64,000 bases of DNA, taken from [Phialemoniopsis] sp. UDSM-2020 (taxonomy: Eukaryota > Ascomycota > Sordariomycetes > Thyridiales > Thyridiaceae). The notes below the pieces were generated by a model. That model worked only from the letters and a program-made list of their open reading frames with translations. It was not told the origin of the DNA and ran no database searches. Below, piece by piece: positions 10,020 to 57,599 of the stretch (its first letter is position 1; each line of letters opens with the position of its first letter). The stretch is from NCBI GenBank assembly GCA_018873225.1, contig JAEILZ010000002.1:496001-560000 (forward strand). Reading direction: 5' to 3'. The position numbers and the translations under genes are program-made.

Positions 10020-10107
10020 TACAAGAAAAGAACCGTCGATTGACTAGAGAGTGATTTGATGTCATCACGAACGACTTTACCGTGACCGAACGCCAGCGAC
10101 TTGCATC

Positions 10108-11639
10108 ATGCTCTCACTTCTCTGTGCTTTGTTGACTTTGACGAGCAACACGGCGGCATATGCCGTGTTGGACAAGCGCGCAACCGTCTCCGGCACCGCC
10201 TCGGTACGACTTGACGTATCCACCGGCGCGCCTCACCAACTTGCTTCTGGAATATTGTATGGCATTCCAGACCAGCAGAACCAGATCCCAGATGTCTTCT
10301 ACAAAGACATCGGGTTCAAGTACTGTCGGGCTGGTGGCGCACAACTTCCAGGACAAGGATACATCGGATCTACTCAAGGCTACCAGGTAAGGTCAACTTC
10401 GCTCGGCAACGCCATACATCACTTGCTAACTCAGATCAAGACTCGATTCAAGTCCGCTTTGAGCAACTATCAGACTACACGCAAGTATGGAGGCACCTTC
10501 ATTCTCCTTCCGCACGATATCTGGGGAGCCGACGGCACCCAGTCCGGCAGCGCAGTCTACCCTGGCGACAACGGAGACTGGAGCAAGTACGATGCGTTTC
10601 TAACACAGCTCATCTCCGATCTAAAAGCCAATAAGATGACTGATGGGCTCGTGATCGATATCTGGAATGAGCCAGACTTGACGGCTTTCTGGAACCGGCC
10701 GCAGTCGCAGTACATTCAGCTGTGGGGCAGATCTTACCACCGATTCCAGTGAGTGATGAACCTTTTTATTCTTGACGAACGCAGCATTCGCGGTATTTTT
10801 GTGAAAATCTCTTATTCTGACGAGTCCGAACCAGACGCGACCTCCCCGGTTGTGTCATCTCAGGCCCCTCGTTCGCCGGCTCGCCTTCCAGCTCCAACTC
10901 CTGGTGGACCAACTGGGCGACATTCATTGCCCAGAACCAGAGCGCGCCAATGCAGTACAGCTGGCACATGGAAGGCGGCGGAGGCGACATGCAGTCGTCC
11001 GTCGCCAATTACAAGAGCATCCTCAGCAGCCGCGGCCTCGCCACTGACAGGACCATCAACATCAACGAGTACGCAGTTTGGGACGAGGAGCTCCCCGCCG
11101 GCAGCGCATGGTGGATCGCCCAGCTCGAGCGCGTCAATGCCTACGGACTGCGGGGCAACTGGCTCTCCGGCTATGCGCTTCACGACTTCATGGCTGGACT
11201 GGTAGGCAAGCCGGACGGCACGACTTCTTACAACCCCACTGCTGGTGGTTACTACTGGACACCCGCCGGGCAAGTGTACAGGTACTACGCGAAGAACATG
11301 ACAGGCACGCGTGTCCAGACAACCCCGACTGCCGACCTGCGCGGAGAGGTCTATGCTGTCGTGTCGGCCGACACGGTCCGTCTTCTGGTCGGGTCTCGCG
11401 TTGCTACAGGCACGTTTTACATTCAGCTCCAGAACCTTGCGGCTGTCGGGCTACCCCAGAGCGGCACTCTAAATATCCACACTTGGGGGTTCACCAGCTC
11501 CAACGACCACTATGCTCGGCTCGATACGCCGACGGACCTGGGCTGGTACGGGCATACTTACAGCGGCAACACCCTATCGTTCCCTATCTACCAGAATGAT
11601 GCCTACACTGCGTATGCATTTGAGTTCTCTCGGAAATAG
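10108..11639 (+). CDS. Secreted glycoside hydrolase, clan GH-A (GH39-like)
   Basis: Three exons, 10108-10386, 10435-10748 and 10835-11639, give about 465 aa. MLSLLCALLTLTSNTAAYA is a signal peptide, and LDKR just after it is a Kex2-like dibasic site. The catalytic domain shows the clan GH-A signature VIDIWNEPDL near residue 170, whose Glu would be the acid/base. A later ININEYAVWDEE near 273 is a candidate nucleophile strand. The last 110 residues look like a beta-sandwich accessory domain, as GH39 enzymes have. GH39 covers beta-xylosidases and enzymes acting on arabinose or rhamnose side chains, so the exact substrate is open. The neighbouring GH127 gene and sugar transporter, which share its promoter motif, point to plant cell-wall arabinose- or pectin-type glycans. 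Confidence 0.8.
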
Positions 11640-25904: not shown

Positions 25905-28074
25905 ATGGCGGATGTCAATAGGTATGTTATGCTATTAGAAGAGCTGAAAAGTCTTGTAACTAAAGCTTCCGACCCTAGGGCCCTCGCTGCTTGCCTGCGG
26001 TGCCGACGACAAAAGCTCAAATGTGGGGGCCCGGATCAGATCCCGTGCCGGAGATGTCGCGCGAGCGGTGCCGAGTGCGTCTTTGTTGCCCCAAAGGCCT
26101 CCTCCGCCAAAGATGCGATTGAACGGTCGGGCGGAGGGACTTATGATGCGTGAGTCGACTAGGCATCCGAAGACTGCGATAACGTCGAATTCGGATCGCT
26201 GACAAACCCGCAGGAAGATCATGAGTCTTGAGCAGCGGCTTAAGTCCATGGAGGAGCAATTTAGTCAACAGATATCGGACCTCCAAGAGACAGTAGGTCA
26301 GTTGACGCAGAGTTCTAGGTCCGAGACCGGAAATGCCGCGTCGCGACCGCTTGACCTGGCTGAAGGGACATCCGCGCGCTCAATAATTCGATCCCGGACG
26401 ATCGGTCACGAGCTTGAGCCAGTCGCTGTCGCCGCATCAGACGATATCTTGTCTCAAGGGCTCGTAAGCCGGTCAGAATGGGAAGAGCTTTATGATTTGT
26501 AAGTAACTATTTTTCCCCAGACACGCGTAATTCCAATCAAGAACTAACGCTGTCTTGTAGTTATGATGAGAATTGCAAGGAATCTATCAACTTCTTAGAC
26601 GGTCAGATAATCCCACCAAGAGCTCAAGCCCGTCGGTACCCGCTTCTGGCTCTTGTAATATGCGCTATCGCGGCAAGAGCTGTCCGGCCTGAGAGGTACC
26701 AGTTCTTCATCGCTCAGAGCGACAACATGATCAAGGACCACTTCAATGGGCCCGTGCCCGATTTGCTGAGCCTCGTGGCCATGATGATGGTTGCCGCTTG
26801 GACGGGACGGATTCGGCTGTGGGGTTTCATTGCCTCAGTGGCGATAGAACTGAAACTCAACGAAAGCGCTTTGCAGCTTGGGGACCACTCGATCGAGCAG
26901 TCCGAAGATCTCGTTCAGCGTGGTCGGCTGTGGTTTTCGATATGCTGCTTTGACTTGACGTACGTACATACGATCTTACAACATTCTAAGCTCTGATATT
27001 GATACTATCAGCATAAACATCACTCGGCCGTTCTTCACCAACCGAATGAAGGAGTACTTTCCGCAAGTGAAAGAATTACTTCTCTCGAAATATCGCCGAC
27101 CAGTCGACTACCGCATCTATGCATATGTACAAGGCTTCACCATCACAGGTCAGTCAATGGCACTTGTCATTGATAGTATATAACTAATTGGATGTCAGGC
27201 GATGCAAAGGGACAGATCAAAATGTCGCAGCTACTTGCACATCCATTGCCGGAGAGTGTAGTTGATACGCTTCTGTCTCTTGACCAACGAGCGGACGTAT
27301 GGTTCAACGAGGCAAACAATGGCATCGGTCCTCATTTCCAAACTTTTGACATTGAGCAAGATCGCAACCGATTCGTAATTCCCTACGCTTTCATCAAACT
27401 GTAAGCTCCGTGTTCAATAGATGCCTTCCGATCTGCATGCTAATGAGGATCAACCAATCAGCTACATTAATGGACTCGCCTTGAATGGCCTGAGAGCGGA
27501 GATCAACCCCATGGATCCCAAAAGAGTTAGCTTCATCAAGCGAGCAGTTGATAATGCCTGTCTTTTGATACAGACACAGTTCGAGTCAGAGTCATTCAGA
27601 CGGGGGATCCGATACACAATGGTAGTAGACTTTCTGATTATCCGGAGAACGATTGAAGTCCACTAACCAAGTACGCACAGGACTACAACGGAATGACCAC
27701 ATACTATGCCAGTGGCTTCATTTTCAAAGCAATGAAGTTCATTCATCACTACCTCGACTGCGGAAAGTCTCTGCTCGCATTACGGCAGGCTGCTCAGATC
27801 TTCGAGGAGGCCGGTGCTAGCGACACTGCTGCTGAGATGCGGAAGGAACAGGAGCGGCTGGCTGCTTCGACCAACACGACACTTCCGCCTCTGGAGACGC
27901 CGGATCTAGCAATCAGCGACGTAAATTTAGAGTCCCTCTTCGATATTCCCAGCTTCCTCGACGACATGGTAAGTTTTCCGTACTCTGTTGTAGTAAGTTA
28001 TTGCACCACTAATCTTCATCCCCAAGGTCTGGGACAACGAATTCCCCACTATTAGTCTCTACTCTCTCACTTGA
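25905..28074 (+). CDS. Zn2Cys6 transcription factor (9 exons)
   Basis: Nine exons give about 568 aa: 25905-25921, 25979-26149, 26214-26498, 26561-26959, 27012-27148, 27199-27400, 27462-27621, 27681-27968 and 28027-28074. The spliced N-terminus MADVNRALAACLRCRRQKLK places the C6 cluster at residues 11-39. A coiled segment (MSLEQRLKSMEEQFSQQISD) follows, a typical dimerisation helix. The regulatory domain runs from FLDGQIIPPRAQARRYPLLA. It ends VWDNEFPTISLYSLT after an acidic stretch. The first intron (57 nt) is a multiple of three and stop-free, but removing it brings the cluster close to the start, as expected. Target genes are unknown; the next genes downstream are the small minus-strand array. 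Confidence 0.88.
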
Positions 28075-28332: not shown

Positions 28333-28625
28333 CTACTGGCTCTGGAATTGCGAGCCAACCTGGCGCAGATCGACCGACTGATCCTTAGTCTTTTTCTTGT
28401 CGCTTTTGGAAGAACTCTTCTTGCTTTTCTTTTCCTCTGACCCGCTTTTCTTCTTCGAAGACTGTCTGGGAGAAGAGCTTGTAGCAGCCGTGCTCCAAGT
28501 ATCGGAATGATCTCTAGTTTTAATCAGCCCATTAGTCACCAGAAGCGCGGTACAATTGTGGCGCAGTGCAAAGGAAAAGAGTGTTTGTTGCCCATATGCA
28601 TTTCATATTCATACCTCTTCGGCAT
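28333..28625 (-). CDS. Array gene A: small Lys/Ser-rich protein with VGSQF C-terminus
   Basis: Exon 1 is 28625-28615 (MPK plus 2 nt), followed by a 101-nt intron with GTATGA donor and CTAG acceptor, then exon 2 at 28513-28333. The product is about 63 aa. It starts MPKRDHSDTWSTAATSSS, then has a highly charged Lys/Ser run (KKKSGSEEKKSKKSSSKSDK), and ends SVDLRQVGSQFQSQ. The end is the array signature D-L-L-G-[VI]-G-[SA]-Q-F with LLG changed to LRQ. The phase-2 intron after a very short exon matches genes B, D and F. A TATAAAT (28782-28788) sits about 160 nt before the ATG. There is no signal peptide or membrane segment. The lysine tract resembles a nuclear localisation region. Function unknown. 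Confidence 0.55.
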
Positions 28626-28781
28626 TGCGTACGCGTTGTACAGACAAGACAAGTTCCAGCGGGTTGAGGTGAAGGCGTGAAGGCCCGGATTTCTAATTGT
28701 GAGTGAATGTGTATTGGGTTTCCAAGCGAGGATGGACTTGTTGCTCGTCTGAAGGGGAAAGATAATGAGGAACACTCTTGA

Positions 28782-28788
28782 ATTTATA
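28782..28788 (-). promoter_or_regulatory. TATA box of array gene A
   Basis: TATAAAT on the minus strand, about 157 nt upstream of the predicted ATG at 28625. Confidence 0.45.
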
Positions 28789-30232
28789 CATCCCCAGTTA
28801 ACCCTTTTCATGTCGTCACCAGCAATAGGAAACCACGATGCACCTCTATGTGGGTTAATTAGTCGTCCTATTGCAACCTCCTTAGGAGTATAATACATGA
28901 CCATGGTGACAGTCAAGTCTCTACAGAGTTTAGTGCTAAATGGGTGCCACAAGGCAGTGCGTTGGGCCAGGGCTAGGTCTCTAGCTTACGGGTCATGGTG
29001 ATACTAATTACGGTCTTGTTCTTGAGAGAGTGACCGCATGAGTAGCATGAGTTCTGAGTTACGGCCAGAAGGTTTAGTGGCAATGGCCCAAAGGAGTATT
29101 TCAAACACCAGGCGTTCATTACCGAGCAGCCCGTGAAACAAGTTTCGGTAAGTGTTGGAGAGATGGGGAAGGTTTGGAAGCCGTGGGCCATCTATGAAGC
29201 CGAAGGTTTCGCCGATATCTGAACAAACCATGAGTGATTCTCGATTGAAGGCAAATTTGTCTACTCTTAGGTTCGCGGGTCTCATGACTGCGCATTGCAA
29301 AGTCGCGGGGCGTTGTGGTCACAATCCATTGCACTGGCGTTGTGTAGGGCCGACCATGCCGTCCACCTGCCGTGCCCATTCCCGAAGATGTGAGTGGTCT
29401 ATATATACCGCCCATGGTATCCTCTCAGGGGAAACTGTTGACGGTTGAGGTGTGAGACACGGCAAGTATTCGTTCGCGTGGCTGCTGATAGTCTGGTAGC
29501 CTGTCACGTCTCTCGTCACTACACCCATCAGGTGCTAGATCCACGGCACGGCTCGATGCTGACAGGTTCCAGGCCTTTGCTAGAAACCCTGCTTCGATCA
29601 TTGGCTATGTTTCTCATTGCTCGGCCATTTGTCCCACTTACGACTGTCACACACGCAGGGCCAGACCGCAGCAAGGCAGTGCTACAGGTAATGGTCAAGT
29701 CCAAACGATGTATGGCATTTCATGAATCTCATCCCCGCCAACAATGTCACTCCGCACTTCTCCACCCTTTTTAACCTTTGATGTCTCAAAAATTGGGCCG
29801 AGGGTTCACCATCAAAGTTCGGCCAATTGAACAGGTAAATTGCTTATTATCGTTCATGGTTTGACTGAACAACTATTGGCACCAGGTGACCGGCATTCAT
29901 ACGTTGTATAGCACGAATGAACGTCAAGATCATGCAACGACACATCTGTATAGTACTTATCCTTTTCACATTGAGCGACCTCTAATCGTGGGGCGTCAGT
30001 AATTACGTCTAGGAGTTGGCGGTATAGCGCCGACTTGCACGACGTCATCAATACCTAGGGACCTAAATTCGCGTTGTGCTTGCTCAATTAGGGCACTGTT
30101 CAAGGCAAGTGTGTTCATTTCAAACGACACTACTCTATTCTACCAGGTGATCTTCTTCAATTCTGAGCCCCTTTGCCGGAAACTACAAGACAAGAATGCG
30201 GCACACAGCGCGAAGACTCCAGTACCGATTCC
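28789..30232. other. Gene-poor stretch between array genes A and B
   Basis: 1.4 kb. Several frames of 65-110 codons on both strands lack recognisable domains. I found no copy of the array signature and no transposon ends. Confidence 0.45.
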
Positions 30233-30545
30233 CTATTGATCAAACTGGGCACCGATTCCGAGCAGATCAGTGTCAACTTGATGGCCCCGATGCACGTCAT
30301 CTGCGGTATTGACCTCTGGGGTAGTCTCACGGTCAAGGGCAACGCCGATCGACGAAGGGATAGTAGAATAGGGTGTGACAAGTTGTGCCTCGGCCGTAGT
30401 TGATTGAAATGATGTATCCTTCCTCATATCATCCACTTCGCTGTGGCTGGATGAGATCCTTAGTATCACGTCGTATAGCTAACGGATAGCGTACGTACTT
30501 GGACGCATCCGACAGAGCGCTCGCGGTGCCGGACTCTGTCTCCAT
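30233..30545 (-). CDS. Array gene B: small protein ending DLLGIGAQFDQ
   Basis: Exon 1 is 30545-30499 (15 codons plus 2 nt: METESGTASALSDAS), followed by a 52-nt intron (GTACGT to CCAG) and exon 2 at 30446-30233. The product is about 86 aa. Exon 2 begins HSEVDDMRKDTSF, is rich in Ser/Thr and acidic residues, and ends QVDTDLLGIGAQFDQ. The exon-1 length, intron phase (2) and C-terminus match array gene D. The HSEVDD opening of exon 2 is also recognisable in relic E (DEVDDLAVY). An ATAAATA element (about 30829-30835) lies some 285 nt before the ATG. There is no signal peptide. Function unknown. Confidence 0.6.
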
Positions 30546-30839
30546 ATCTTGTCAAGTGACTGTTCGAGGAACGAGGACCTCGCAACTTGGAGGATAATGA
30601 TAGAATGGATGTCGAGGGAGCGATGTATCGTATACGCTGGGATGAGGGCGAATGTTGTGAGACAATGAGACGCCTTCCAGTAGTATGCAATAAGCATGAG
30701 AATGAGCACTGCTGTAGGAACAATCCGTGAATACAAAGTGGCCGGGTTTTAGGATCACAACGAACACGATGTAACGACGAGAGGTTCTCGTGAGTCGCTC
30801 GAGGGTATGTAGCCCATTATTTATGCATGGCAGGAAACA

Positions 30840-31577
30840 AGTCATGATGCGAGTCCCCAAATGAAAATGGTACATAAAGACTCGCACACAAACTGTGAAG
30901 GGATGACTACCGTGTTGATGCCACAGGGTCTTCTTTCGGTTTCTAATTTGTTCCAGCACCTGATAAGTCTCCGGATGGCATATTGTGGCATGCTCACTCC
31001 CGGCTATCTGTTGCACTGGTCTTGAAATGAGGCGTTATTACCAGTAAATAGTAGTAAAGTAGTGGAGGCTTGCACATATGGACAAATTCCTAGCACAGAT
31101 TCACAGACTTTCCCACTGGAAACGATTATTTCCTGGTACTCAGCATTTGCGACACAAGATGGTATGAGCTCGATAGATCCAGGTGACGTGGGTGACATGC
31201 ACACGTTGGGGTGACGCTAACGTTGGCAAACGTTAACAATGTGCAAGGCGACGCTTTTCGGCTGGCCGCTCGACTCCGCTTTTTGGAGCAGTTTTGAAAA
31301 TTGCTCCAAAAAGCGGAGTCCAAGCGATGGCGCTCTACCAATCCGAGCTGATTCCGCAGTACATACCCTGTGTTCATATCAAGCGTTTATTCAGTCCTGT
31401 CAGTCCTCACTTTCATGAGATGGAATGTCTTATTGGGTTCCTGATTGGTATATGGAGCTTCCATTTCGACGGGACCGTTTCTCAATTGATTCCAGGCTCT
31501 TCCGTCTTTCACCTACGAAGCACAACTTCGATGCATGTACCTGGATCTGAAAATGCCATGTGATGTGCTTGACAAAG
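30840..31577. other. Intergenic with large palindrome
   Basis: 740 nt without a supported gene. It contains the near-perfect palindrome centred at 31296 (separate entry) and a shorter inverted repeat TAACGTT/AACGTTA around 31219-31236. Confidence 0.5.
31267..31326. repeat. Long hairpin-forming palindrome
   Basis: Two perfect 19-nt arms, 31272-31290 (GACTCCGCTTTTTGGAGCA) and 31302-31320, flank an 11-nt centre that is itself self-complementary except for one G/T pair. The dyad therefore spans 49 bp. Outside it, CGCT (31267-31270) and AGCG (31323-31326) can extend the stem across a small bulge. It is too symmetric for chance. It could be a hairpin RNA source, a MITE remnant or a joined pair of terminal repeats. 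Confidence 0.7.
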
Positions 31578-31888
31578 TCAACGTTCAAATTGCGATCCAA
31601 CTCCAAGCAAATCAACATCCATGCGATGGTGCGATCCATCGAGCATGAGGGGTCCACTGTGCGCCATCACAGCTGGTTGCTCTCCAACAGGCGGAGCGTC
31701 AACAGACGAAGGCCGGGTTGATGTTGACTTCTGCGTGTACTTGGAAGTAACACTGGCAGCGTGGGTTGACGGCTTAGGTGTTCTTCTACTCGAGGTCAGT
31801 AGTATCCCGCATTATCGCAAGAGAGCACTAACTGCACGTGAACGCTTTTACAAGAAAGCTTGGTTGAGCTGTTGGTTTTGCCACCCAT
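31578..31888 (-). CDS. Array gene C: small protein ending DLLGVGSQFER, possibly disrupted
   Basis: The signature-bearing exon is about 31788-31578. It reads HAASVTSKYTQKSTSTRPSS, continues through GPLMLDGSHHRMDVD, and ends DLLGVGSQFER before a stop. Every acceptor available at its 5' end (GAG, TAG, AAG) demands a phase-2 donor, as in genes A, B, D and F. A matching first exon, ATG at 31888 encoding MGGKTNSSTKLS, ends at a GTAAAA donor in phase 1. Splicing it would throw the signature out of frame. Either a one-base indel has broken the gene or a different first exon is used. A strong TATATATA at 32123-32130 sits 235 nt before this ATG, as expected for the family. Confidence 0.45.
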
Positions 31889-32122
31889 TGCGGAATGATC
31901 TGAGACAATACTCAATGACTCTCGCTACACAGGGGGTGCAGAAATCTGATGTGACCCCTGTCCGGGTGTATAAAGCCACCACGAGGAAGCAATGATGGTG
32001 TTGGTGTATGGAATGTCTCTTAGCCTCGTAAGGTACCTCGTAGATGTCTCTTAGACTCGCAAAGGATTGCTATAGGGCATCCGAGCTGGGGAAACCCATC
32101 CATCGATTTGTAGGGAGTGGGC

Positions 32123-32130
32123 TATATATA
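32123..32130 (-). promoter_or_regulatory. TATA box of array gene C
   Basis: TATATATA, about 235 nt upstream of the candidate ATG at 31888, comparable with gene F (about 224 nt). Confidence 0.45.
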
Positions 32131-33172
32131 GAACCCTCGTGGAAACGCCAGCATGGGAATGGGCATAGGATATGTTGCATATCAAGAGTCTGCACGCAGG
32201 GCAAGAAACAGAATGGTAAAGTGGCATGCTCATTGCTGCTTGTCGGCTTTTCAGCTAACGCCTACATGTCGGAAGGCGTAGAAACATGCAAGGTTGAACG
32301 GAGATACAGTATGTACGACTGAGCACTATTGGTACTTTCCTGGTAAGTAGATTAAACTTATTGTGCGGCATGCCGAGTGTGCATTAAAACTAATGAGAGG
32401 TACCATCTACCAGGAAGTGCTCGCCACGACCAGTACTTCGTCGAAAGAGAACTGCACAATGAGACAGGATTCCCATCGCGAGATGCGGAACGATGACACG
32501 GCTTTCCTCAGCCCAGTCACCGGCATATTGCCCCGGCGCGCGATGCACATGCATGCTCATGGTGTTCCGAGAGCCAGTCAAGAGCGAGAACGCGTACTTT
32601 TCCAACAGTGCATAGGCGCGCGTGCATACTTGTGTCGCTTCTAGCACCCAATAAGATCGACTGCATGTGAACGAGAATGCTGCCTGACTCAGCCGTGGTC
32701 ATCGGATTGCCCAGCTCCTGCGGCTGTTTGCGCGCCTGTGACGTGGCTATCGCGCTTGCTTACGCACCCTGCAGCGCTTATCCGCATAAGCGCGTCTGAT
32801 CTGCGAGGGAGTGTGTGTCGGCTGGACTTTGGTTCAACCAGTCAGAACCCGGAACTAATGGATGCTACCTTGCCTGCATTAGAGTCTTCGGTGAAGGGCT
32901 GTCGCCACCGCCTCTCAAGGAATCCAGTGCATCCGGCGCGGCGGCGGGTCAGCTGTCTCCCCGCACGATCAGTCGTCCTTCCTCCAACCGAGTAAGCCCC
33001 TTGAGATACAAGAGCGTAGAACGGCAAGATTACCGTTCAATTTCGCAGAGCAGTAGGATTTACTGCCACGACTTATCAAGATTAAGGTGTACACGGTCTC
33101 AATACCAGGGTCAGGCATGCCAACGTAGACATCATCTTGCTTTACTACTTCGAAAGATCCCTTGATGCCCAT
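32131..33172. other. Gene-poor stretch upstream of array gene C
   Basis: 1.0 kb with no supported gene. It holds the 13-mer ATGCACATGCATG at 32543-32555, which is repeated exactly upstream of array gene F (39679-39691). Confidence 0.5.
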
Positions 33173-33249
33173 TTATGCGTGTGAAAGATGACCATGAAGT
33201 GGCAGTTGGGTGATGTACAAGCCATCCTTGACTAGAAGTGGTAAAGTGT

Positions 33250-33876
33250 TGAAACTTATGCCGCAGTTTCCTCGGGCTTCCCACTTGAGGCCCAGACTGC
33301 CTTCCAATTGTGCCACCTGAGACCCGATGCCGCAGGTCTGGGCCTTACTACATTGCCAGGCCCATAGCTTCCCCTGTGCATGGTAAGTTCTATTGGTAGC
33401 CATAAAGTTCGAAACATCGAAGGGAAGGGACTCACATGAAACAGCTCGTCGACCTCCTCCAAGGAGCGACCCTTGAGCTCGGGAATGAACAGCACGGAAA
33501 AGACGAAGCAAGCAGCGGCGAGACCTAGGATGACGTAGCCCATCTTGGCTTCCAACTTGATGGTTGGCCCATCGAGGAGGTACGGAGTGAAAAACGTGAC
33601 GAGGAATGCCGACACAACATCGAACATGACGTCCCAACCGACCATCTTCTTGCGCATCTGCGTGCCGCCAAAATCGGAGCCTATAAACCATGACTGACTT
33701 GCTCTTCCGATTTTCGAAGCACCGTTGAGGAGTAGGACGGACGCCACGACGACGTTGCTGTTGACGGAACCGGAGGCGTGAGTGCCGGGGAGCGACCCGA
33801 CGCCACCAATCGGCCCGCTGAACAGGACGTACGCACATGGTTCATTAGCCATATTACTGTCTAGAATAAATGTCAC
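33250..33876 (-). pseudogene. Decayed C-terminal fragment of an MFS sugar transporter
   Basis: The minus-strand frame ends its recognisable part with KMGYVILGLAAACFVFSVLF, then IPELKGRSLEEVDELFH. That is the last two membrane segments and the PExKGRxLEExDELF tail of sugar porters, and it is preceded by a degraded stretch with hydrophobic runs (DVVSAFLVTFFTPYLLDGP). A GTGAGT donor follows the tail near 33433. The N-terminal half, including the PESPRW and GRR motifs, is absent upstream, and the region before it (33900-34250) is non-coding. It is not a recent copy of either intact transporter in the window (tails PETKGVSLERMDKIF and VETKGYTLEELDDIF). I read it as a relic within a decaying region. 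Confidence 0.7.
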
Positions 33877-33995
33877 CCAAATACATAGTCAGGTACCCAC
33901 GTTCCGGGTGCTTCAGCAATAGCGCCGTCATATCCCTCTCCAGTCCCTGTCTTTTGTCGCCACCACCCTTGCAATCTAAGGCTCTAACTTCTTTC

Positions 33996-34016
33996 AGCGG
34001 GTTCTCTGAACCCGCT
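33996..34016. repeat. Perfect 9-bp inverted repeat with 3-nt loop
   Basis: AGCGGGTTC, loop TCT, GAACCCGCT. It lies just upstream of the transporter relic. It could be a terminator-like hairpin, an operator or part of a mobile-element end. No T-tract follows. Confidence 0.55.
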
Positions 34017-34838
34017 AGATTAGGCTAGACTTACCCCGCCGCAATGCGCCATGCGCCGAAATGCGCCCCCTTGGAATTGGCGCTCCTTTTAAGTCGATGT
34101 TGTTGAAATTTGATCTACCAAGATATGCTAAACGCAGCAATATGGTGCTTCCCTGGTTGCAACTGTTTTATTACAGCAACGAGGCGCTCGAAAAGATATT
34201 AAGGCAAGCAGAGGCAACGACTAGAGACCTCGGAAGCATATTATGCGCGCTCGAAGCAAAGATCAAGGTCCTTATTATTGCAAAATAATCATAAGAGGCG
34301 GAACGGCTGATAAGAACACCATGTTGCACTTCTCTATCACGCACCTTGCCAATTTGCAGGACTGAGCTTGTGGGGGGCTGATGATGAGTCGTTGGAGGTG
34401 CTGCGCTCCGCCCGAGCAGCAAAGACCACTCCGTCGAATCAGCTGCAATCTGTGTCTCATACAATCCCATGGTCTTGGGTCGCAGATTATTCCTCAGATC
34501 ATCCTCTACCGCCGCCGACGTTCCAAAACTACGATGACCACTGCCATTATCTTGCCATGTAGCTTGATTATTGAGCACTTTAGTGACATATCAATGCCAA
34601 AAGGGAAATGTGAGTATGGGGCCACAAGTTCAGCTACTGGAATATGTTTTAAGCACAAGATCGGGTGAACTATCCATCAAAGGAACGGAAAAGATTGGTA
34701 GAAGGGCCGTTCAAATAAAGGTAATACGCAGTACTACTTCATGAAGGAATTTGCTTCATGTACAAATATATTAAAATTCTGTTTCATAAGGTGGGTCATG
34801 CGAATCAAGCCATATCAAGCTCTTGAGAGATATATATT
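34017..34838. other. Gene-poor, AT-rich stretch
   Basis: 820 nt between the transporter relic and array gene D. Short frames only; no signature copy and no recognisable domain. Confidence 0.45.
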
Positions 34839-35177
34839 TCACTTGAATTGCGAACCAACACCAAGCAGGTCCATCTCCATCCGGTGTTGCGACACGTCAT
34901 TGCGTTCCATCACACCGATGGTAGTTTCGCTAGTTCTTGGGGTGCCGGGACCCTGTTCAATCGAAGAAGTAGACGTCGCGACGCTGTAAGATTTCCTTTC
35001 CGTCGGCATCCCGACGGTGCTAGCTGAGATAGTTGACGGTCTATGTGGAAGATGAGTAGGTGAGCAGATGACGGTATTTCTGGGAAAGATAGTAGAATGG
35101 AGAAGAATGTTGTGTAGGGGGTTTACATACAGGTACGCCTGCGATGCAGAGCTGCATTCATGGTCAGTGTGGGGCAT
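34839..35177 (-). CDS. Array gene D: small protein ending DLLGVGSQFK
   Basis: Exon 1 is 35177-35131 (15 codons plus CT: MPHTDHECSSASQAY), followed by a 111-nt intron with GTATGT donor and AGCTAG acceptor, then exon 2 at 35019-34839. The product is about 75 aa. Across the junction it reads AYLTVGMPTERKSYSVATST, is Ser/Thr-rich through the middle, and ends QHRMEMDLLGVGSQFK. The junction codon CT|C (Leu), then T-V, is the same as in gene F (ILTVYSAYG), and even the acceptor context CTAG|CAC matches. A TATAAAA (35485-35491) lies about 310 nt before the ATG. There is no signal peptide. An alternative ATG ten nt downstream is in another frame. Function unknown. Confidence 0.65.
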   Translation of the reverse strand: MPHTDHECSSASQAYLYVNPLHNILLHSTIFPRNTVICSPTHLPHRPSTISASTVGMPTERKSYSVATSTSSIEQGPGTPRTSETTIGVMERNDVSQHRMEMDLLGVGSQFK

Positions 35178-35484
35178 AGCTGTTTGCAATGTGGTGTAAT
35201 GAAAGAGGGCGTCCCCCAATAAAGAGGTGAGAGGGAAGTTCCGAAGGGTGCTGGAGACGTCGAGATGTATGGAAATAGAGAAGACAGCCGACAGCGATGT
35301 TGAACAATAAGGAGGAAAGCTGGCCAAATAATTGTATCCGAGGTGTTCTTCGCTTGGAGTTAGGTCAGAGGCAAACGCAGCGTTGTATAGTATAATTGAA
35401 TGCTTTCGTTGCAGGATATGAGAACGTCGGACGGATGTGAAGAAATGAACTTGAGGGCACATAATTTAGGCAATGTTTTGCTGA

Positions 35485-35491
35485 TTTTATA
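35485..35491 (-). promoter_or_regulatory. TATA box of array gene D
   Basis: TATAAAA on the minus strand, about 308 nt before the predicted ATG at 35177. Confidence 0.45.
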
Positions 35492-37549
35492 TTCATATCC
35501 CGTCGAAAGACCGCTTATGGGTCCGGTGTTCTTGGTGTTGGATGCTTGGGACAAGCTAGTGGTTTAGACGTCTTCTAGGCATCGAATGTATGTGTATGAT
35601 GCGATGCGGACCCTTGGGGCCAATGAGATAGCTTAGATGCCGATAAGCTTTATGATAGGCCCGTTAGCTACCCTTCCCGCCATGGCTACTTAGATAACTT
35701 TGCTGTCGAAACGCGGCTTGCCAATACGGTCATAACACTTCCAGATGTTCTTTACCGAAGGATGCAATCTATTAAATGCTCGGTCCCTCATGTATAGAAC
35801 GCAGATAATTCAGCAGATAAAAGAAATCCCTTTAGGATGTGGTGTCTTCATGAATGAGCCAACAGGCTGGGCGAACCAAATGCCGAAAGGCGGTGTACTG
35901 CAAGTACCGGTACCTGAAGCTGTTCCCAATGTTGTGTACTATGCGTACTATGTGTACTATGTGTATATTGATGTAGTACATCCCGACCCTTCTAGGGACC
36001 TCTATGCAAGTCAATCAAGCACTATTCCAGTCAAATTGGCACAAATCGGGTGATAAGTAGGGGGGCAAGAGATGCGCTTGGAAGGATTTAGAAACGGCTC
36101 GCGCCGACCAAATCAATCAGCTGACTACCATGTTGCTGTATCCAGGGCTCCCGGCGACTGCCCTCAACTCTCAAACAAGGTTAAGATCCCCGAACCTCGT
36201 CTGTTTGGGCAGATTGGAGCGCATCAAGGTTGAGTACCCTGATCTGTTATTGATTCCAGCTACACAGCTTCGCGTATGTACATTACGACGCAGACACACC
36301 GTGAATAAGCCTCCCCCATTCCCAGCGCTGCTACTGTCAACAGAATATACTGCTGCATCAGGGTAGCCGACTCGGGGCCTGCATATTCGAGTCAGGCCGG
36401 CGCGACATGCAGGATGCTGCGAGTCAATCCTCAAGCCCCCCATGGACATTAGGGTACGCGCTAAGTTCGGGCACCATGAGTGGCATACGTAGATGCCTGG
36501 AGCAAGGCTGACGGTGGCAAAAGCCGCTGGATGACATGCGGTGTACTTTTTCTGCCAAGCTTGTATGGCTCCCGCTTTGTTAAATCACTCACAATCGGAA
36601 TCTAGTCTTCGGAATTTAGTCTTCCGACGAGAGTTAATGACTCAATAGCAGACTACAGGTTGATACCAGACTTGAAACGGGTTTTGGCTCATACAGACTG
36701 AAGTCTTTTGTGTCAGAACGTACAGTGTTAGTCAAGAAACCACAAGCGCCTCTCCTCTTACTTAGTGATACGCCTCTCAATGTAGCTACCGGGAAGTGTG
36801 TTTACTTACCTCTATTCCGGGCTATGGTCTGCCGAGGTATTCGGCCTACTTCCGAAATGGGTGTCTCTCCCTGAGGCGACGGTGCAAATTCTGGTTGGCT
36901 CAACTTCTCGTGTCTTGACAGCTGTTATCGTCTCACCTTTTCAAAATGCAGTGGGGTAGATATCTGCACGAGCCATTCACAGGCGCTCTCGCAATCGCTA
37001 ATGCAACTGTGGCGTCAAAAACGAGCTGAGCTGATGGTGAAACGCACGGCATCACGCAGCACTTACCAAGTTAGGCCTCCACCGAGGGTTCTCACCTGGG
37101 GCGGACGACGCCATTCAGCAAGGGTTCTCGTGGCTTACTCTCCACCGCGGTTTCGAAACATTGACACTAGGAAAGATGCAAGGTCGCTAACAGGGGAACT
37201 CGGCCGAAACCCCACAGAGACGGGCATGGTTGGGCGTCCTATAATTGTCGCCATGCTGTGGCCGACTCCCAGCAATCGAAAACTCCTTGCTAGCGTCGGA
37301 AGATGCACCTCTACGATATCATGAATGATCGGCGTAGTGTCGTGCTAGTTAATGTTGCCATTGTCTCTGGGGCTTAGGGTCATAGTCACTTCACCCTACA
37401 ATTACTTATGTCCATGTTATCATGGGAACCCAGGGCAGACATGATCTATAACCCCTTTCTTCTGAAAAACTGGTTCCTACCTCTCCTATCCCAGCCTCCA
37501 TTAGAGTAGGACACTGGGGCTTCAGTACACATTGTGTCGTTTTATTTAG
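35492..37549. other. Gene-poor 2-kb stretch between D and relic E
   Basis: No supported gene and no signature copy. A 9-nt tandem repeat (TACTATGYG, three units) lies at about 35937-35964. Frames up to 107 codons occur but none shows domain-like sequence. Confidence 0.45.
35937..35964 (+). repeat. Short tandem repeat, TACTATGYG x3
   Basis: Three consecutive 9-nt units with one C/T difference, in non-coding DNA. Confidence 0.6.
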
Positions 37550-37672
37550 TGTGTCCAAATTGCGACTGGGCCCAACCCCAAGCAGATCAATCCTAACACT
37601 ATTCGCGGAGCTGGTAACCTCAGTGGAGATGCTATGGTGCCTATACACGGCAAGATCGTCCACTTCATCTAC
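37550..37672 (-). pseudogene. Array relic E: truncated copy with a broken signature
   Basis: After a possible acceptor (GTGAGTAG at about 37670) the minus strand encodes DEVDDLAVYRHHSISTEVTS, then SANSVRIDLLGVG. The opening DEVDDL matches HSEVDDM of array gene B, and the end is the array signature. Between G-V-G and S-Q-F there are five extra bases (CCCAG), so the frame shifts and runs on instead of stopping. Removing the insertion in thought shows SQFGHTK and a stop, the normal family end. Upstream I find no TATA box, no short ATG exon and no GTAAGT/GTATGT-type donor. It is best read as a 5'-truncated, frameshifted relic. Confidence 0.6.
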
Positions 37673-37680
37673 TCACCCTG

Positions 37681-38695
37681 GTTTCAATTGAGCACAGATT
37701 GTCTGTAATGGTGGCGCTTGGCAGCCAAACTCCTTAAGTATTGATTTGAAAAGCGAGCCCGGTTTGCAGCAGCTTCAGCACAAGCGCTTTGTTTGTAACC
37801 CCGGTTTATGGGGAGTAAGGCGACCTTTCTTTGGTAGTTCGATCAAAATGATAGGAAGCCTGCTAGGAGTGGGTAGACAAGGGTTATTGGTTGGTCAAAA
37901 ATGAGGCGGTTCAGGCTTCCCACTCGGAGTGATACTCGGCGTGGTACATAGTACAACCTACAGAAGAATACAGCTCGATTGGGCAGACTAGATGCGCACC
38001 GGAGAAAGATTTGGCAGCAAGACTGTATTTGGCGCTCTTTCCGGATGAGGCAGCTGAAGAATATGCGGCGTCGCCCTGGACGTGCTCTCTGATCTTTGAC
38101 GGTACAAGGGCAGATTTTATCTATCTGTCGGCAGTTGTTGCCAAACCCGCGGATGTGACATCTTGCATTACGAGAACCAGGGTCAGGGGTGTCTTCTGAG
38201 GGGTAAAGTGTCATCAAGATGTGAAGCTCGAAGCTCTCCACGAAGCCAGTGGCTTGGTCCATGTCGTAATACTCGCTGCCCAATCAGATGTCACCCCGGG
38301 CCACACCCAGGGGTCTCCACGGCCGAGGCGCTGTCGATCTCCGTGAAGTCGGGCTGAAGGCCCACAGAAATCACAATTGGCAAAGGCCAGGGGGTGTAAC
38401 GGACATGGAAGCGAAAGTCCAATCGCGACGGTCAGACATCCCATTGCATTGCAATACCATCTCATGAATAGGCCTGGTCAGCGTGATACAACTTTACTAG
38501 CAGAGGGAGTAGTACTTTCGCCAGAAACGCTTTCCCGAAGTAGCATTGTGATGTGATTGTTGAGTGGCAAAGTCTAGTTGTCTTCAAAGTGTAGAGGTGT
38601 AACTAAATGAAATCTTATCAAACTTGGATATTGAATTCAACACGTCTACTGATAGCTCATGTATACTCGTGGTTGCGACTGTCCAAACACACGCA
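37681..38695. other. Gene-poor stretch between relic E and gene F
   Basis: 1.0 kb. Frames on both strands are short and unsupported. No first exon for relic E was found here. Confidence 0.45.
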
Positions 38696-39038
38696 TCACT
38701 TCCCGAATTGCGAGCCAATTCCAAGCAAGTCAACTGCCATCTGGTGTTGCGGTCCAGTATGCTGCCCAGGGATACCAGAACTATCTTCACCCGGCGTGAG
38801 CGCCACTGCTGATTGTCCCATAGAAGTTGCAGAAGTTGAGGAGCTACGTGATGTACCTCCATAGGCTGAGTAGACAGTGCTAGCTCTGCTGGATGCCTAG
38901 CTAAGGGGTATGTGAGCACACTGAGCAAGCCACGAATCATAGTAAGAACAAAAAGGCAAGAAATTATAGACGAGATGACACATTGAATTCCACATACAGA
39001 ATCGTCTGCTGTGTAGGATTGGGTATTTTGTCAGACAT
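38696..39038 (-). CDS. Array gene F: small protein ending DLLGIGSQFGK
   Basis: Exon 1 is 39038-38998 (13 codons plus CT: MSDKIPNPTQQTI), followed by a 118-nt intron with GTATGT donor and GCTAG acceptor, then exon 2 at 38879-38696. The product is about 74 aa: ILTVYSAYGGTSRSSSTSAT, a Gly/Pro-rich middle (EDSSGIPGQHTGP), and the end QHQMAVDLLGIGSQFGK. It is Ser/Thr-rich with no signal peptide or membrane segment. Donor, phase, junction codon and acceptor are the same as in gene D although the proteins share little outside the C-terminus. A TATAAAT (39262-39268) lies about 224 nt before the ATG. The upstream 13-mer at 39679-39691 is shared with gene C. Function unknown. Confidence 0.65.
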
Positions 39039-39261
39039 GACTGTAAGCGTCTAGATGATCAGGGTACCCTGGCGTGTGAAGAAGGAGGTGATCAGGCCTA
39101 GTAGCCGACGATAGAGGTGAGAAGGGGGATTTTCAGTAAGCAATGAAGTAGCAATGAACACAAAGCTTCTGAAAGTCGACCTGCATACCATACAGTGTAT
39201 CGATTACTATGAAGAATTTGGAACAAGAAGCGAATTATGGAGCGAGCAGACGAAGAGACAT

Positions 39262-39268
39262 ATTTATA
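39262..39268 (-). promoter_or_regulatory. TATA box of array gene F
   Basis: TATAAAT on the minus strand, about 224 nt before the ATG at 39038. Confidence 0.45.
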
Positions 39269-40576: not shown

Positions 40577-42160
40577 CTAGTCCGCCACAACAATAACCTC
40601 CCGTCGGCGTGTAGCCTCCTTATTCGGATGTCTCGCCGCAAAGATGTCATCAAGCTCCTCCAAGGTGTACCCCTTCGTCTCAACAAAGAAGAAGAAGGAG
40701 AACACGGTCTGGAAACAAGTCCAGCACGCAAATACAAGGTAAGTCTTCCAACCGATGTATTGCAGCGCGTTCGCAGTTCCAAATTGATTGACCAAAGCCG
40801 CGGCAGAGTTCGCCATTGAATTGATGGCCATGCCCTTGGCACGCATCTCATAGGACAAAACCTCGACGGGGTAGAGAGCCTGTAGAGGAGTGAAGCCGAA
40901 CGAGAAGGCGGCCTGGAAGAGCCAGTAGAAGAAGATGCCGACGATGGAGGAGGCTCTTGTATGGTTCGTTGCATAAGTTGCTGTCCCCGCCGTGATGCCT
41001 GCCCAACACAGGCAGAGAATTGCCTGGGTTCCCACAATGACTTTACGACGGCCCCATGTATCTGCCATGCTGGCGCCGGTGATAGCCAGGACACCGGAAA
41101 GAACGAACAAGCCGAGGTTGAGATCCAACACTGTGGTCTCTTCGGTGATGCCGGCCGACTTATAGAATCCGGCGATGTAGTAGCTGATTCCGCCCTGGGA
41201 CCACTGCGCAAAGACGGCGAGGAGGACATTGCAGAGGATACGGCGAATATTGCCCCTCGATCGCCAGAAGACACTGTAATCCCAGAATCGCTTGTCCGAG
41301 CCGTTCATCTCCAAGGCCTCGGAGAACTCGCGCAGCTGCAGAGCAACATAAAGGCTGTCGGGATTATCATTGCCATGATACTTGACGAGGATCTCTTTCG
41401 CCTTCTCCTGGTGACCGTGTGTGTACAGCCAACGAGGCGATTCCGGGAAGAGCAGGATAAGGAGGAAGACAATGCTGGGGAAGGCCATTTGCATCCAAGT
41501 AGGGATAAGCCAAGGCAGGTTCCCAGAGTAGTCTTTGGAGCCGCGGGTTACTCCAGCGGCCAGGATGGCTCCGGAGAAGTACATGCAATTGTAGGTGCCC
41601 GTCATGACACCGCGGTACGCTGGGTGCGACATCTCAACGACGTATGTGGGCGCAGCGGTAGCAGTGAGGAAGACCCCAAAGCCAAGGAAGAACCGCCCTG
41701 CCATGAATTGTGCGAGGTTGGCGGATGCCGCAGACGTCCCTTCGAGAATCGTGCCGATGATAATGATGCCAGTGCCAAACATGGTGCCCACACGCCGACC
41801 CCACTGGTCGGTCAGCGGACCCATGAAGGGCAAAGCCGAGACTCCGCCGATCTGATACATGGCGGTAATCAGCGCGGACTTCTCACCCACGACACCGGTC
41901 TGGAAAGTGTCGCGGTAAGACTTGGTGACGAGGATCGTGCCCATGAGGCTACCATCATAGCCGTGTGCAGTGGATGTCAAGAACATGATGCCAAGGAACA
42001 TGTACAGTTGAAGCATCCGCTTTGAGAAGGGATTGACAGGCTCGAGCAGCTTCGGTGCAGCTAGAGCTTCAGAGCCCCTGACGACTTTGCTGATGACGGG
42101 CTTCTTGCCATCATGTTGCTCGTGCTGCTCCATGTCTATCCCAGCCGCTTCAGACCCCAT
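40577..42160 (-). CDS. MFS sugar transporter (lactose/hexose permease-like)
   Basis: Intronless, 527 aa. Sugar-porter motifs in order: MFLTSTAHGYDGSLMGTIL (TM1), LTDQWGRRVGTMFG (loop 2-3), PAYRGVMTGTYNC, FPESPRWLYTHGHQEKA, DTWGRRKVIVG (loop 8-9), YPVEVLSYEMRAKGMAINSM and FVETKGYTLEELDDIF after TM12. The 5' region lacks a cleavable signal, as expected for a 12-TM plasma-membrane porter. Fungal lactose permeases and related galactoside or hexose porters have this sequence style. It lies directly before, and on the same strand as, a GH28-type and a GH79 gene, so it probably imports sugars they release. Confidence 0.92.
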   Translation of the reverse strand: MGSEAAGIDMEQHEQHDGKKPVISKVVRGSEALAAPKLLEPVNPFSKRMLQLYMFLGIMFLTSTAHGYDGSLMGTILVTKSYRDTFQTGVVGEKSALITAMYQIGGVSALPFMGPLTDQWGRRVGTMFGTGIIIIGTILEGTSAASANLAQFMAGRFFLGFGVFLTATAAPTYVVEMSHPAYRGVMTGTYNCMYFSGAILAAGVTRGSKDYSGNLPWLIPTWMQMAFPSIVFLLILLFPESPRWLYTHGHQEKAKEILVKYHGNDNPDSLYVALQLREFSEALEMNGSDKRFWDYSVFWRSRGNIRRILCNVLLAVFAQWSQGGISYYIAGFYKSAGITEETTVLDLNLGLFVLSGVLAITGASMADTWGRRKVIVGTQAILCLCWAGITAGTATYATNHTRASSIVGIFFYWLFQAAFSFGFTPLQALYPVEVLSYEMRAKGMAINSMANSAAALVNQFGTANALQYIGWKTYLVFACWTCFQTVFSFFFFVETKGYTLEELDDIFAARHPNKEATRRREVIVVAD

Positions 42161-42933
42161 TTTCAGGAGGAGACTGTTTCAAATCTAGTGGAGTCTTGAG
42201 AGCTGAATGATAACGAAGAATGATTTGAGAAAGAGTTCTTGCTTTTGAAAAGAGACTTTTGACAAAGCACCTCTGCTCTGTGGGGAAGGACTGTCGATCC
42301 ATCTTATACGAGATTAAAGAAGCCGACCCCACGAACGATATGATACCCCGTAGATGTTGGTGGTATTCCCCCGGAATGTATGGCATGATGGCTGTTGGTG
42401 GGAGAGTGTGGGATAATCTGGCCTCCTAATGCACAGCTCTGCGGGATGGTACCCGTGTTGTTGGGTTTCGTCTGCGGGATATGTTAGTGTATCCCTTACA
42501 GGCTAGATCCTACACACCCAGAAAAAGCTTGATTCAGCCCCAGCGACTCAAATTGTCAAGCCGAGATCTCACCTGCCAAAAGTGGCAAGGCTGGGGTCTC
42601 CGCACCGACCGTCTCGGGGTTCTTCTGGGGCCCCGCACAACCATACGCCGAAGTCCCACCACGGTAAAAGTCAGGGTTTGGTCAGCTATCGTCCACTCTG
42701 AATGTTCAGCGTGGGACAGAATGGCGCTTGAATGTGCATCTCTTTCACCACGTTTCGACTGCAACAAGCATATGCCAGGAATGGTTTCGTCAGACACAGC
42801 GACCTAGCTTGATAAAACAGTCTTTCCTAAGTCATCCAACGTGATCCATATACTACCGAATGCATCTTTTATGTGCCATAATTTCCACACTAAGTGCATT
42901 CACAATATCATTTCTAGACTTCTAGCTACAGTC
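42161..42933. other. Intergenic, permease promoter and GH28-type 3' flank
   Basis: 773 nt without a supported gene. It has a GGGGCCCCGCA element near 42629-42639, related to elements upstream of the GH28-type and GH79 genes. Confidence 0.5.
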
Positions 42934-55946: not shown

Positions 55947-57155
55947 TCAGTAGCCCGGAGACTTCTGCCGCTCCCGGATGTTCCTCTCAATCGTCCGCTC
56001 CCAGTGCACGAGCCGCCCGTCCAGCGGCGCAATGTACTCGGGCATCCCGACCACGTCCGCCAAAAACTCCCCGGCGCTCCCGTCCTTGCACTTATCGTGG
56101 AACCCGCGCATTTCGCGCACGATGCTCAGTGTCACGCCGTCAAAGTAGAGCCCGGCCTCCCTCATCTCCTTGAGGATGGACAGCACGGCCGGCACGTCGC
56201 CGTAGCGGAACCAGTAGATGGACATGAGGGCGTTGTAGAAGGGCGTCGAGGCGCCGAGCACGTACGACGCGAGGCCGAGCTCCTTGACGCGCGGCAGGAC
56301 GTGGAAGACGAGCGGGGACGACTTGGCGAAGTGGCTGTCGAGCAGGCGCAGCGCGTAGACGAGGTGTAAAGGGTAGAGCGGCCCGTAGACCTCCATCTTG
56401 GCCTCGACGTTCTTCTTGCCGCTGCCGCGCCGTTTGCCCTTTTTCTGCCCCACGGCGAGCCCGAGCTTGGGGATCAGGTCGAAGACCTGCTTCTCCATGA
56501 CGGCCCAGAGCTCAAAGTCGGTCTTGCACGCGGCCATGAGGGCCTCGGTCTTGGCGCGCGCGGCCGTGATCTTCTCCCAGCGCTCCTTCTTCTGCTGCAG
56601 CACGACCTCGTCGACGATCTCGACGGGGCGCTCGTCCAGCTGCAGCTCGGCGGTTTCTCCTTCGGTCTGCTCGTTGGGGGCCTGGACAGGCTCTTGTATG
56701 CCGAGCGCCAATGCTGCTTCTGCGTGGAGACTGGCCGGAAACTGCCGGAGCGCTTCGTGCGACTTTAGCTTCCTTTGAGATACGTCCAGTGTGTTGCTGT
56801 CCTTCACGGCACCGCTGACCTTGGCAGCGCCTACGGGGCGGTCTGCGGACTCCTTCGCATCGTCCTCGAAGCCGACGGGCGTGGGTTTGCGCGAGGCGAT
56901 CTCGTTGAAGATGTCCTGGAACGCGCGGCGCTCGTGTGGCGTGATGGTTCCTTTGATCTCGTCGTCTTTGGATGCATTGGGATCGAGCTTCTTGTCGCCG
57001 TCTCCCAGGTCGAATGGCACCCAGTCCGTTTCGTTGCGTCGGGTGGATGTCGAGACGGAGAAAGACCGCCCGAGCTGGAGCGCCAGTCGTGATCGGGGCA
57101 AGCGCAGCAGGGTTCTCGTCTGATAGAGAAAGGGGAGGAGTGTCGTGCCCGACAT
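55947..57155 (-). CDS. Mtf2-like mitochondrial protein
   Basis: Intronless, about 402 aa from the ATG at 57155. The N-terminus (MSGTTLLPFLYQTRTLLRLPRS, then RLALQLGRSFSVSTSTRRN) is an Arg/Ser/Leu-rich mitochondrial presequence with a likely R-S-F-S processing site. The conserved C-terminal region includes RWEKITAARAKTEALMAACK, FELWAVMEKQVFDLIPKLGL, and then helices with YGPLYPLHLVYALRLLDSHF and YNALMSIYWFRYGDVPAVLS. The last resemble PPR-like hairpins (LKEMREAGLYFDGVTL). This is the pattern of Mtf2-like C-terminal domain proteins, which in yeast act in mitochondrial mRNA processing and translation. It is divergent from the Cmr1 gene, with 444 nt between the starts. Confidence 0.8.
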   Translation of the reverse strand: MSGTTLLPFLYQTRTLLRLPRSRLALQLGRSFSVSTSTRRNETDWVPFDLGDGDKKLDPNASKDDEIKGTITPHERRAFQDIFNEIASRKPTPVGFEDDAKESADRPVGAAKVSGAVKDSNTLDVSQRKLKSHEALRQFPASLHAEAALALGIQEPVQAPNEQTEGETAELQLDERPVEIVDEVVLQQKKERWEKITAARAKTEALMAACKTDFELWAVMEKQVFDLIPKLGLAVGQKKGKRRGSGKKNVEAKMEVYGPLYPLHLVYALRLLDSHFAKSSPLVFHVLPRVKELGLASYVLGASTPFYNALMSIYWFRYGDVPAVLSILKEMREAGLYFDGVTLSIVREMRGFHDKCKDGSAGEFLADVVGMPEYIAPLDGRLVHWERTIERNIRERQKSPGY

Positions 57156-57599
57156 CGTGTCTGCCTGTTCGGTATTCGCGCCTGTACTGATGAGCTCAGC
57201 AAGTCTGCTAAGCAAAGAAAAGGAGAGCTTTCGCGAGTGAAGCAATTGATGGGCCTCCAAAAATTTCGAGCGATAAGCAGGACAGGGGTTGCTTATCAGG
57301 CCTGAGCTGGAGCTCCAACAGAGAAATTGCGCTAACGACATCGAGAGCCACTTTGCACTTTACGCGATTACGCATGACTTCGCGTCTCTGCCTGGCTTTG
57401 AGTCCCCGCTTCGCCAAAAAGCAATAACGCGTCTCTCCCTCCCAGTCTACTCACTCACCTCGGGTTCAGCTTTGCGGCAAATTCGTGCCACACGCTCTGC
57501 TTTTTTGGACTCAGTTGTGAGCTTTCATCGCCTTTTTCATCTTCAATCGCTTCTAGACATACGTTTCAATTGTGTATCTTTGCACCGTATCTACCTACC
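57156..57599. promoter_or_regulatory. Divergent promoter of the Mtf2-like and Cmr1 genes
   Basis: 444 nt between two housekeeping-type genes. Pyrimidine-rich tracts (CTCTCCCTCCC near 57434 and TTTTTCATCTTC near 57533) precede the Cmr1 start, and no TATA box is evident. Confidence 0.55.

Follow-up and report, generated by a model that had tools for sequence, protein, structure and literature searches.

The window analysed here, the whole stretch of 64,000 nucleotides (nt) at positions 496001-560000 of contig C4 in the [Phialemoniopsis] sp. UDSM-2020 genome (44,176,824 bases in 11 contigs), contains a tandem array of small genes with a common C-terminal peptide, here called the tag. Six tag loci are present, all on the minus strand: complete two-exon models of five genes (A, B, C, D and F) and a relic (E). 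All six tag positions reported in a first-pass annotation, made from the sequence alone, were borne out. That annotation had named A, B, D and F as its testable copies and had left out C from these, which has a complete model of 87 amino acids (aa) as well, and therefore five copies look intact. The loci are as follows.

28333-28625, minus strand: gene A, 63 aa; exon 1 28625-28615, exon 2 28513-28333, intron 28614-28514 (101 nt, phase 2); tag at 28386-28345, KDQSVDLRQVGSQF followed by QSQ and the stop, in the divergent form SVDLRQVGSQF.
30233-30545, minus strand: gene B, 86 aa; exon 1 30545-30499, exon 2 30446-30233, intron 30498-30447 (52 nt, phase 2); tag at 30283-30242, HQVDTDLLGIGAQF followed by DQ and the stop (DLLGIGAQF).
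31578-31888, minus strand: gene C, 87 aa from the ATG at 31888; exon 1 31888-31833, exon 2 31785-31578, intron 31832-31786 (47 nt, donor GTTAGT, phase 2, from enumeration of splice sites), with two alternative acceptors giving 86 or 88 aa; tag at 31628-31587, HRMDVDLLGVGSQF followed by ER and the stop (DLLGVGSQF).
34839-35177, minus strand: gene D, 82 aa; exon 1 35177-35131, exon 2 35040-34839, intron 35130-35041 (90 nt, phase 2); tag at 34886-34845, HRMEMDLLGVGSQF followed by K and the stop (DLLGVGSQF).
37571-37594, minus strand: relic E, RIDLLGVG in frame after only 26 open codons, then SQF-like bases in another frame.
38696-39038, minus strand: gene F, 76 aa (77 with the other acceptor); exon 1 39038-38998, exon 2 from 38885 or 38888 to 38696, intron 38997-38886 (112 nt, or 109 nt with the other acceptor; phase 2); tag at 38746-38705, HQMAVDLLGIGSQF followed by GK and the stop (DLLGIGSQF).
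39260-39268, minus strand: TATA-box-like TATAAATAT, a pattern match 230 nt before the ATG of F.

All five models have the same layout, a single intron of 47-112 nt after a short first exon of 3-18 whole codons plus two bases, and for this reason the intron is in phase 2 in each. The intron of D is itself open in frame, within a 208-codon stop-to-stop frame, so that an unspliced form of D is possible. The tag lies 1-3 residues from the stop in every complete copy. The first-pass annotation had described it as a signature common to the array, which is true of B, C, D and F; A retains only part of it (VDL..VGSQF).

The tag marks a real family of small genes at one locus in one genome. The exact tag pattern GAYYTNYTNGGNNTNGGNNCNCARTTY has four matches in the whole genome, all within the array, on one strand and 1-2 codons before a stop; among the four exact and three one-mismatch matches to the full pattern genome-wide, only those of the four array copies lie within five codons of a stop. 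With up to three mismatches allowed, the window holds six matches (including a non-member at 1108, and not including E) where 0.28 are expected, a count reached in none of 100 shuffles. When all six frames of the window were scored with a BLOSUM matrix, the five complete tags scored 37.6-57.6 (A, 37.6) and the next best places 26.2 (directly behind F), 24.8 (E) and 23.6, as compared with a maximum of 24.0 in five mononucleotide-shuffled windows. The place directly behind the stop of F (38661-38620, minus strand) reads HELSVDVLNSISKF and is possibly a worn second tag, or chance.

Looser patterns yielded little outside the array. With up to two mismatches, 64 places were found in the genome versus 39 for the reversed pattern; 30 loci were taken, of which 29 passed a reading-strand screen and were read, the other 34 places being left unread. 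Among these 29, one extra-array match, DLLGLGCRFS followed by a stop (L028), lies within five codons of a stop, and was taken as chance. A looser pattern with up to one mismatch gave 19 places versus 10 for its reversal; its 13 new loci were read, and 11 of them passed the screen; one extra-array locus near a stop, NLHHMGSQFR followed by a stop (L043), was likewise ascribed to chance. This looser pattern recovers A, and the sole non-family sequence among its six exact matches is inside a long transporter-like frame. A transporter at C6:4026498, presumably of the DAL5-type anion transporters, contains DLSLVGSQF, which resembles the DLRQVGSQF of A but lies inside a long frame, a further 50 codons having been read without reaching a stop; the likeness was taken as chance.

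Protein searches of the genome with F, D, B and A as queries (C was not used; E-values up to 10; scores include the tag) found only array members, apart from two weak matches of the D query (E 0.16 and 0.46). With F as query, D (E 2.9e-4) and C (E 0.0013) are recovered; with D, the matches are C (0.0012), F (0.0014) and B (0.34); with B, the match is D (0.34); A retrieves nothing but itself. At the nucleotide level (blastn, E up to 1), similarity between copies is confined to the 3' ends of C, D and F (47-56 nt) and to a 38-nt match between C and relic E (E 0.51), and A and B have no match to any other copy. Over the nine tag codons DLLGxGxQF, pooled for B, C, D and F, the proportions of synonymous and nonsynonymous differences (pS and pN) are 0.78 and 0.058, and over 14 tag codons 0.81 and 0.159; A and E, whose tags are altered or broken, were for that reason left out. 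Thus, the peptide is conserved and the DNA is not. Judging from these codons, B, C, D and F are old duplicates under strong protein-level constraint at the tag. The proposal in the first-pass annotation that selection acts on the tag is thereby upheld, the similarity between copies being confined to the tag end.

The bodies of the five proteins are another matter. In local alignments compared with 1000 shuffles, nine of the ten body pairs have p>0.1, and the tenth (C-F) has p 0.03, uncorrected for ten tests. The bodies range in net charge from +9 (A, whose body is rich in Lys and Ser) to -12 (B). Ser and Thr make up 33% of A, 24% of B, 25% of C, 29% of D and 28% of F, as against 15.5% on average in 2243 non-coding stretches of the same region (60 codons each, overlapping and free of stops), at least 94.9% of which are exceeded by the family proteins. 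Since the bodies are rich in Ser and Thr and, in nine of ten pairs, align no better than shuffles, their composition is kept and their sequence is not. The first-pass annotation had called the genes fast-diverging, a description that is weakly founded: near-saturated synonymous sites indicate old copies, in which unrelated bodies need no special fast evolution, and the bodies fit relaxed constraint. An unrelated body would be what is expected of a weakly constrained, disordered region in old copies. Birth-and-death evolution, also proposed there, is likewise weakly founded, there being one clear relic (E) only.

The array might be a genetic conflict family (killer and antidote, incompatibility or effector-like), in which the body would diversify under selection and the tag would be the invariant functional end. 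The arrangement in tandem, the single relic, the unrelated bodies and the remnant of a transporter gene between C and D are what such a family might leave. The wtf-type spore killers of fission yeast, among the closest known systems, are small, fast-changing tandem fungal genes with relics. However, the copies are old, and no gene outside the array carries the exact tag, at its end or within it. Moreover, wtf proteins have several membrane helices and secreted small effectors have an N-terminal signal peptide, whereas hydropathy alone gives neither in any of the five proteins: the best 19-residue value is 0.68 (control signal peptide, 2.03) and the N-terminal 9-residue values are at most 1.39 (control, 3.57), a result still compatible with unconventional secretion. 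Genetic conflict is thus quite unlikely as an explanation.

The reading that we prefer, with a little less than even confidence, is of a long-established tandem family whose small, soluble, disordered products, probably intracellular, dock through the C-terminus to one conserved partner. Docking peptides are typically built in this way, as a short constrained end carried by a tether that is disordered and can be phosphorylated. A role of the tag in docking or processing, offered in the first-pass annotation, is an inference. The Ser/Thr-rich body would serve as a tether or phosphorylation surface; the linear peptide at the C-terminus, of the approximate form HxMxVDLLG[VI]G[SA]QFx(1-3)-stop, would dock into one conserved site of a putative single partner; and the bodies would only tune the strength, timing or modification of this contact. 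Four of the five tags (A, C, D and F) contain SQ, and each body has one or two [ST]P sites. The AlphaFold2 model of exon 2 of D, computed with five rows, has a mean predicted local distance difference test score (pLDDT) of 57.1 and a predicted template modelling score (pTM) of 0.13, and DSSP returned nothing for it, which is consistent with disorder but no more than that.

The tag might instead be a handling signal for nuclear export or controlled turnover. In class-2 export signals read by CRM1, hydrophobic residues occupy positions 1, 3, 6 and 8, a spacing that MxVDLLGV/I fits at the tags of C, D and F; this is the main concrete lead among the alternatives. B and A have no CRM1-like match, and neither the equally kept G[SA]QF nor the near-fixed distance to the stop would be explained by export. 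With regard to turnover, the copies end in different residues (Q in A and B, R in C, K in D and F), which makes a C-degron recognised at that position unlikely. We therefore regard a handling signal as unlikely. Patterns for the peroxisomal targeting signal PTS1, HDEL, the PCNA-interacting peptide (PIP), RVxF, NPF and the clathrin box match none of the five proteins, and there is one match like an LC3-interacting region (LIR), in the body of B only.

Self-assembly, with the tag as a short amyloid or oligomer-forming motif joining the family members, is very unlikely. The tag is uncharged except for one Asp and is rich in small and hydrophobic residues, as such a motif could be, and the array resembles the HET-s/HRAM fungal amyloid-signalling motif proteins, in which a disordered tail also ends in a motif that is short and conserved. 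However, nine residues are short against the roughly 20 of these motifs, and the HET-s/HRAM motif is shared with nucleotide-binding oligomerization domain-like receptors (NLR), whereas the array's tag in its exact form is confined to the array; the AlphaFold2 model has no assignable structure (weak evidence). A further likeness, to the lipopeptide pheromone precursors of basidiomycetes (encoded by short genes in tandem, the body variable and the C-terminus conserved), ends at the CAAX farnesylation box that closes those precursors, as none of the five array proteins has one; Cys occurs once in C, once in D and nowhere else in the family.

Several points weigh against docking by an old family. 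Expression and splicing of the models are predictions from sequence. Codon usage does not support the frames, which score -0.23 to 0.02 bits per codon compared with -0.07 to 0.48 in nine neighbouring frames, and at C, D and F another frame has the higher score. The tag is only partly kept in A, which may therefore bind differently or be decaying. The estimate of pS draws on four copies and nine codons, disorder is only weakly tested by AlphaFold2 with five rows, and the protein database search would miss relatives no closer than the copies are to one another. Finally, the partner is a putative one.

The codon usage in particular raises the reading that the array is non-coding or decayed and that the tag is left from a lost larger gene; the broken E and the truncated transporter inside the array would suit such remnants. 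Yet a peptide kept in four copies despite near-saturated synonymous sites, five models that are open and agree in intron phase, and a TATA-like site before each argue to the contrary, and this explanation appears highly improbable. The TATA-like sites (pattern matches) lie 163 nt before the ATG of A, 279 nt before that of B, 242 nt before that of C and 314 nt before that of D. Shared upstream 10-mers (30; maximum 28) and 11-mers (11; maximum 10) are slightly more frequent than in 60 resampled sets, partly owing to B and C. An identical CATGCATGTGCAT occurs on the minus strand at 32555 and 39691, 667 nt before the ATG of C and 653 nt before that of F; as a promoter motif it was rejected, one shared 13-mer being within chance (60 resampled sets have 0.3 on average and at most 3). 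In a test for repeat-induced point mutation (RIP), the TpA/ApT ratio of the array is 0.56-0.93 per kb compared with 0.65 for the window, and a second index shows no consistent fall.

Searches for relatives of the proposed docking family elsewhere covered protein databases and viral, bacterial and archaeal DNA, other fungal DNA and metagenome contigs being outside this scope. Pfam (E up to 5) assigned none of the five proteins, with C represented by its exon 2 alone, to a family; NCBIfam (E up to 1) assigned none of the four proteins searched (A was not included), and an exon-2 profile had no match among PDB sequences. The five-row alignment (the C row being exon 2 only) gave 665 candidates among 5.8 billion proteins, none at E up to 10, and a tag-weighted alignment gave five candidates in the protein database and no match. 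That database includes Sordariomycete proteins, as is evident from the Mtf2 protein encoded at 55947-57359 of the window: its best match among the 120 listed of 255 is from Thyridium curvatum (57% identity over 86%), and the other named Mtf2 matches in the list are, as far as we recognise them, from Sordariomycetes. These matches place the host in the Sordariomycetes, perhaps close to Thyridiales in view of the taxonomy of T. curvatum. Equally distant relatives would escape such a search because the members score only about 17-27 bits against one another, and also because genes this small are often unannotated. Viral contigs gave 17 pattern matches and bacterial and archaeal genomes 71, with none confirmed in either, and neither set is expected to contain a fungal family. 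The spellings DLLGVGSQF, DLLGIGSQF, LLGVGSQF and LLGIGSQF were not found in the open-access literature, a scope that leaves out most subscription papers. The remark in the first-pass annotation that no named family with this end is known agrees with Pfam, NCBIfam, PDB and the open-access literature searched.

The array is an instance of a common kind, the orphan tandem family of small proteins, and is undescribed in the sources searched. Beyond this, we suggest tentatively that HxMxVDLLG[VI]G[SA]QFx(1-3)-stop may be a new C-terminal recognition peptide with a dedicated partner in a Sordariomycete lineage, where disordered microproteins, drifting freely apart from this end, would compete for the partner or bring different bodies to it. 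Small multi-exon genes for disordered proteins are easily overlooked in fungal annotation. The strongly conserved terminal peptide is what makes this family worth a bench test: as its sole fixed part, the peptide could be used as bait for the partner, with the bodies as natural replicates of changeable sequence, and a partner, if found, would show how orphan tandem families persist with nearly all of their sequence free to drift.

The array lies between MFS/GH28 genes and Zn-cluster genes, in a region poor in long frames. Stop-to-stop frames of at least 150 codons are scarce between a frame ending at 26996 and the sugar transporter that bounds the array region, and those present, with other features of the window, are listed below.

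30552-31034: stop-to-stop frame of at least 150 codons.
31272-31320: near-perfect palindrome between C and B, with 24-nt arms (96% complementary) and a 1-nt spacer.
33173-33888: the transporter remnant and an overlapping frame.
33256-33888, minus strand: sugar transporter remnant between C and D, covering Pfam Sugar_tr positions 334-452 only, with a 66% identical relative of the same part at C4:4335655-4336038.
The frame of D, described above.
40577-42178: sugar transporter; beyond it lie a GH28 gene and a frame that carries a GH79 C-terminal domain.

The 5.8S rRNA and an exact pattern for the end of the small-subunit (SSU) rRNA were not found in the 44 Mb assembly, so that the rDNA is missing or was missed. 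Scans for bacterial promoters and terminators and for tRNAs under the bacterial code returned nothing, which has little meaning for fungal DNA. At 10060-11639 on the plus strand, a glycoside-hydrolase-like gene extends over two open frames, of which 10821-11639 matched no family; reading the two jointly gives four stops, and the split may represent either an intron or a broken gene.

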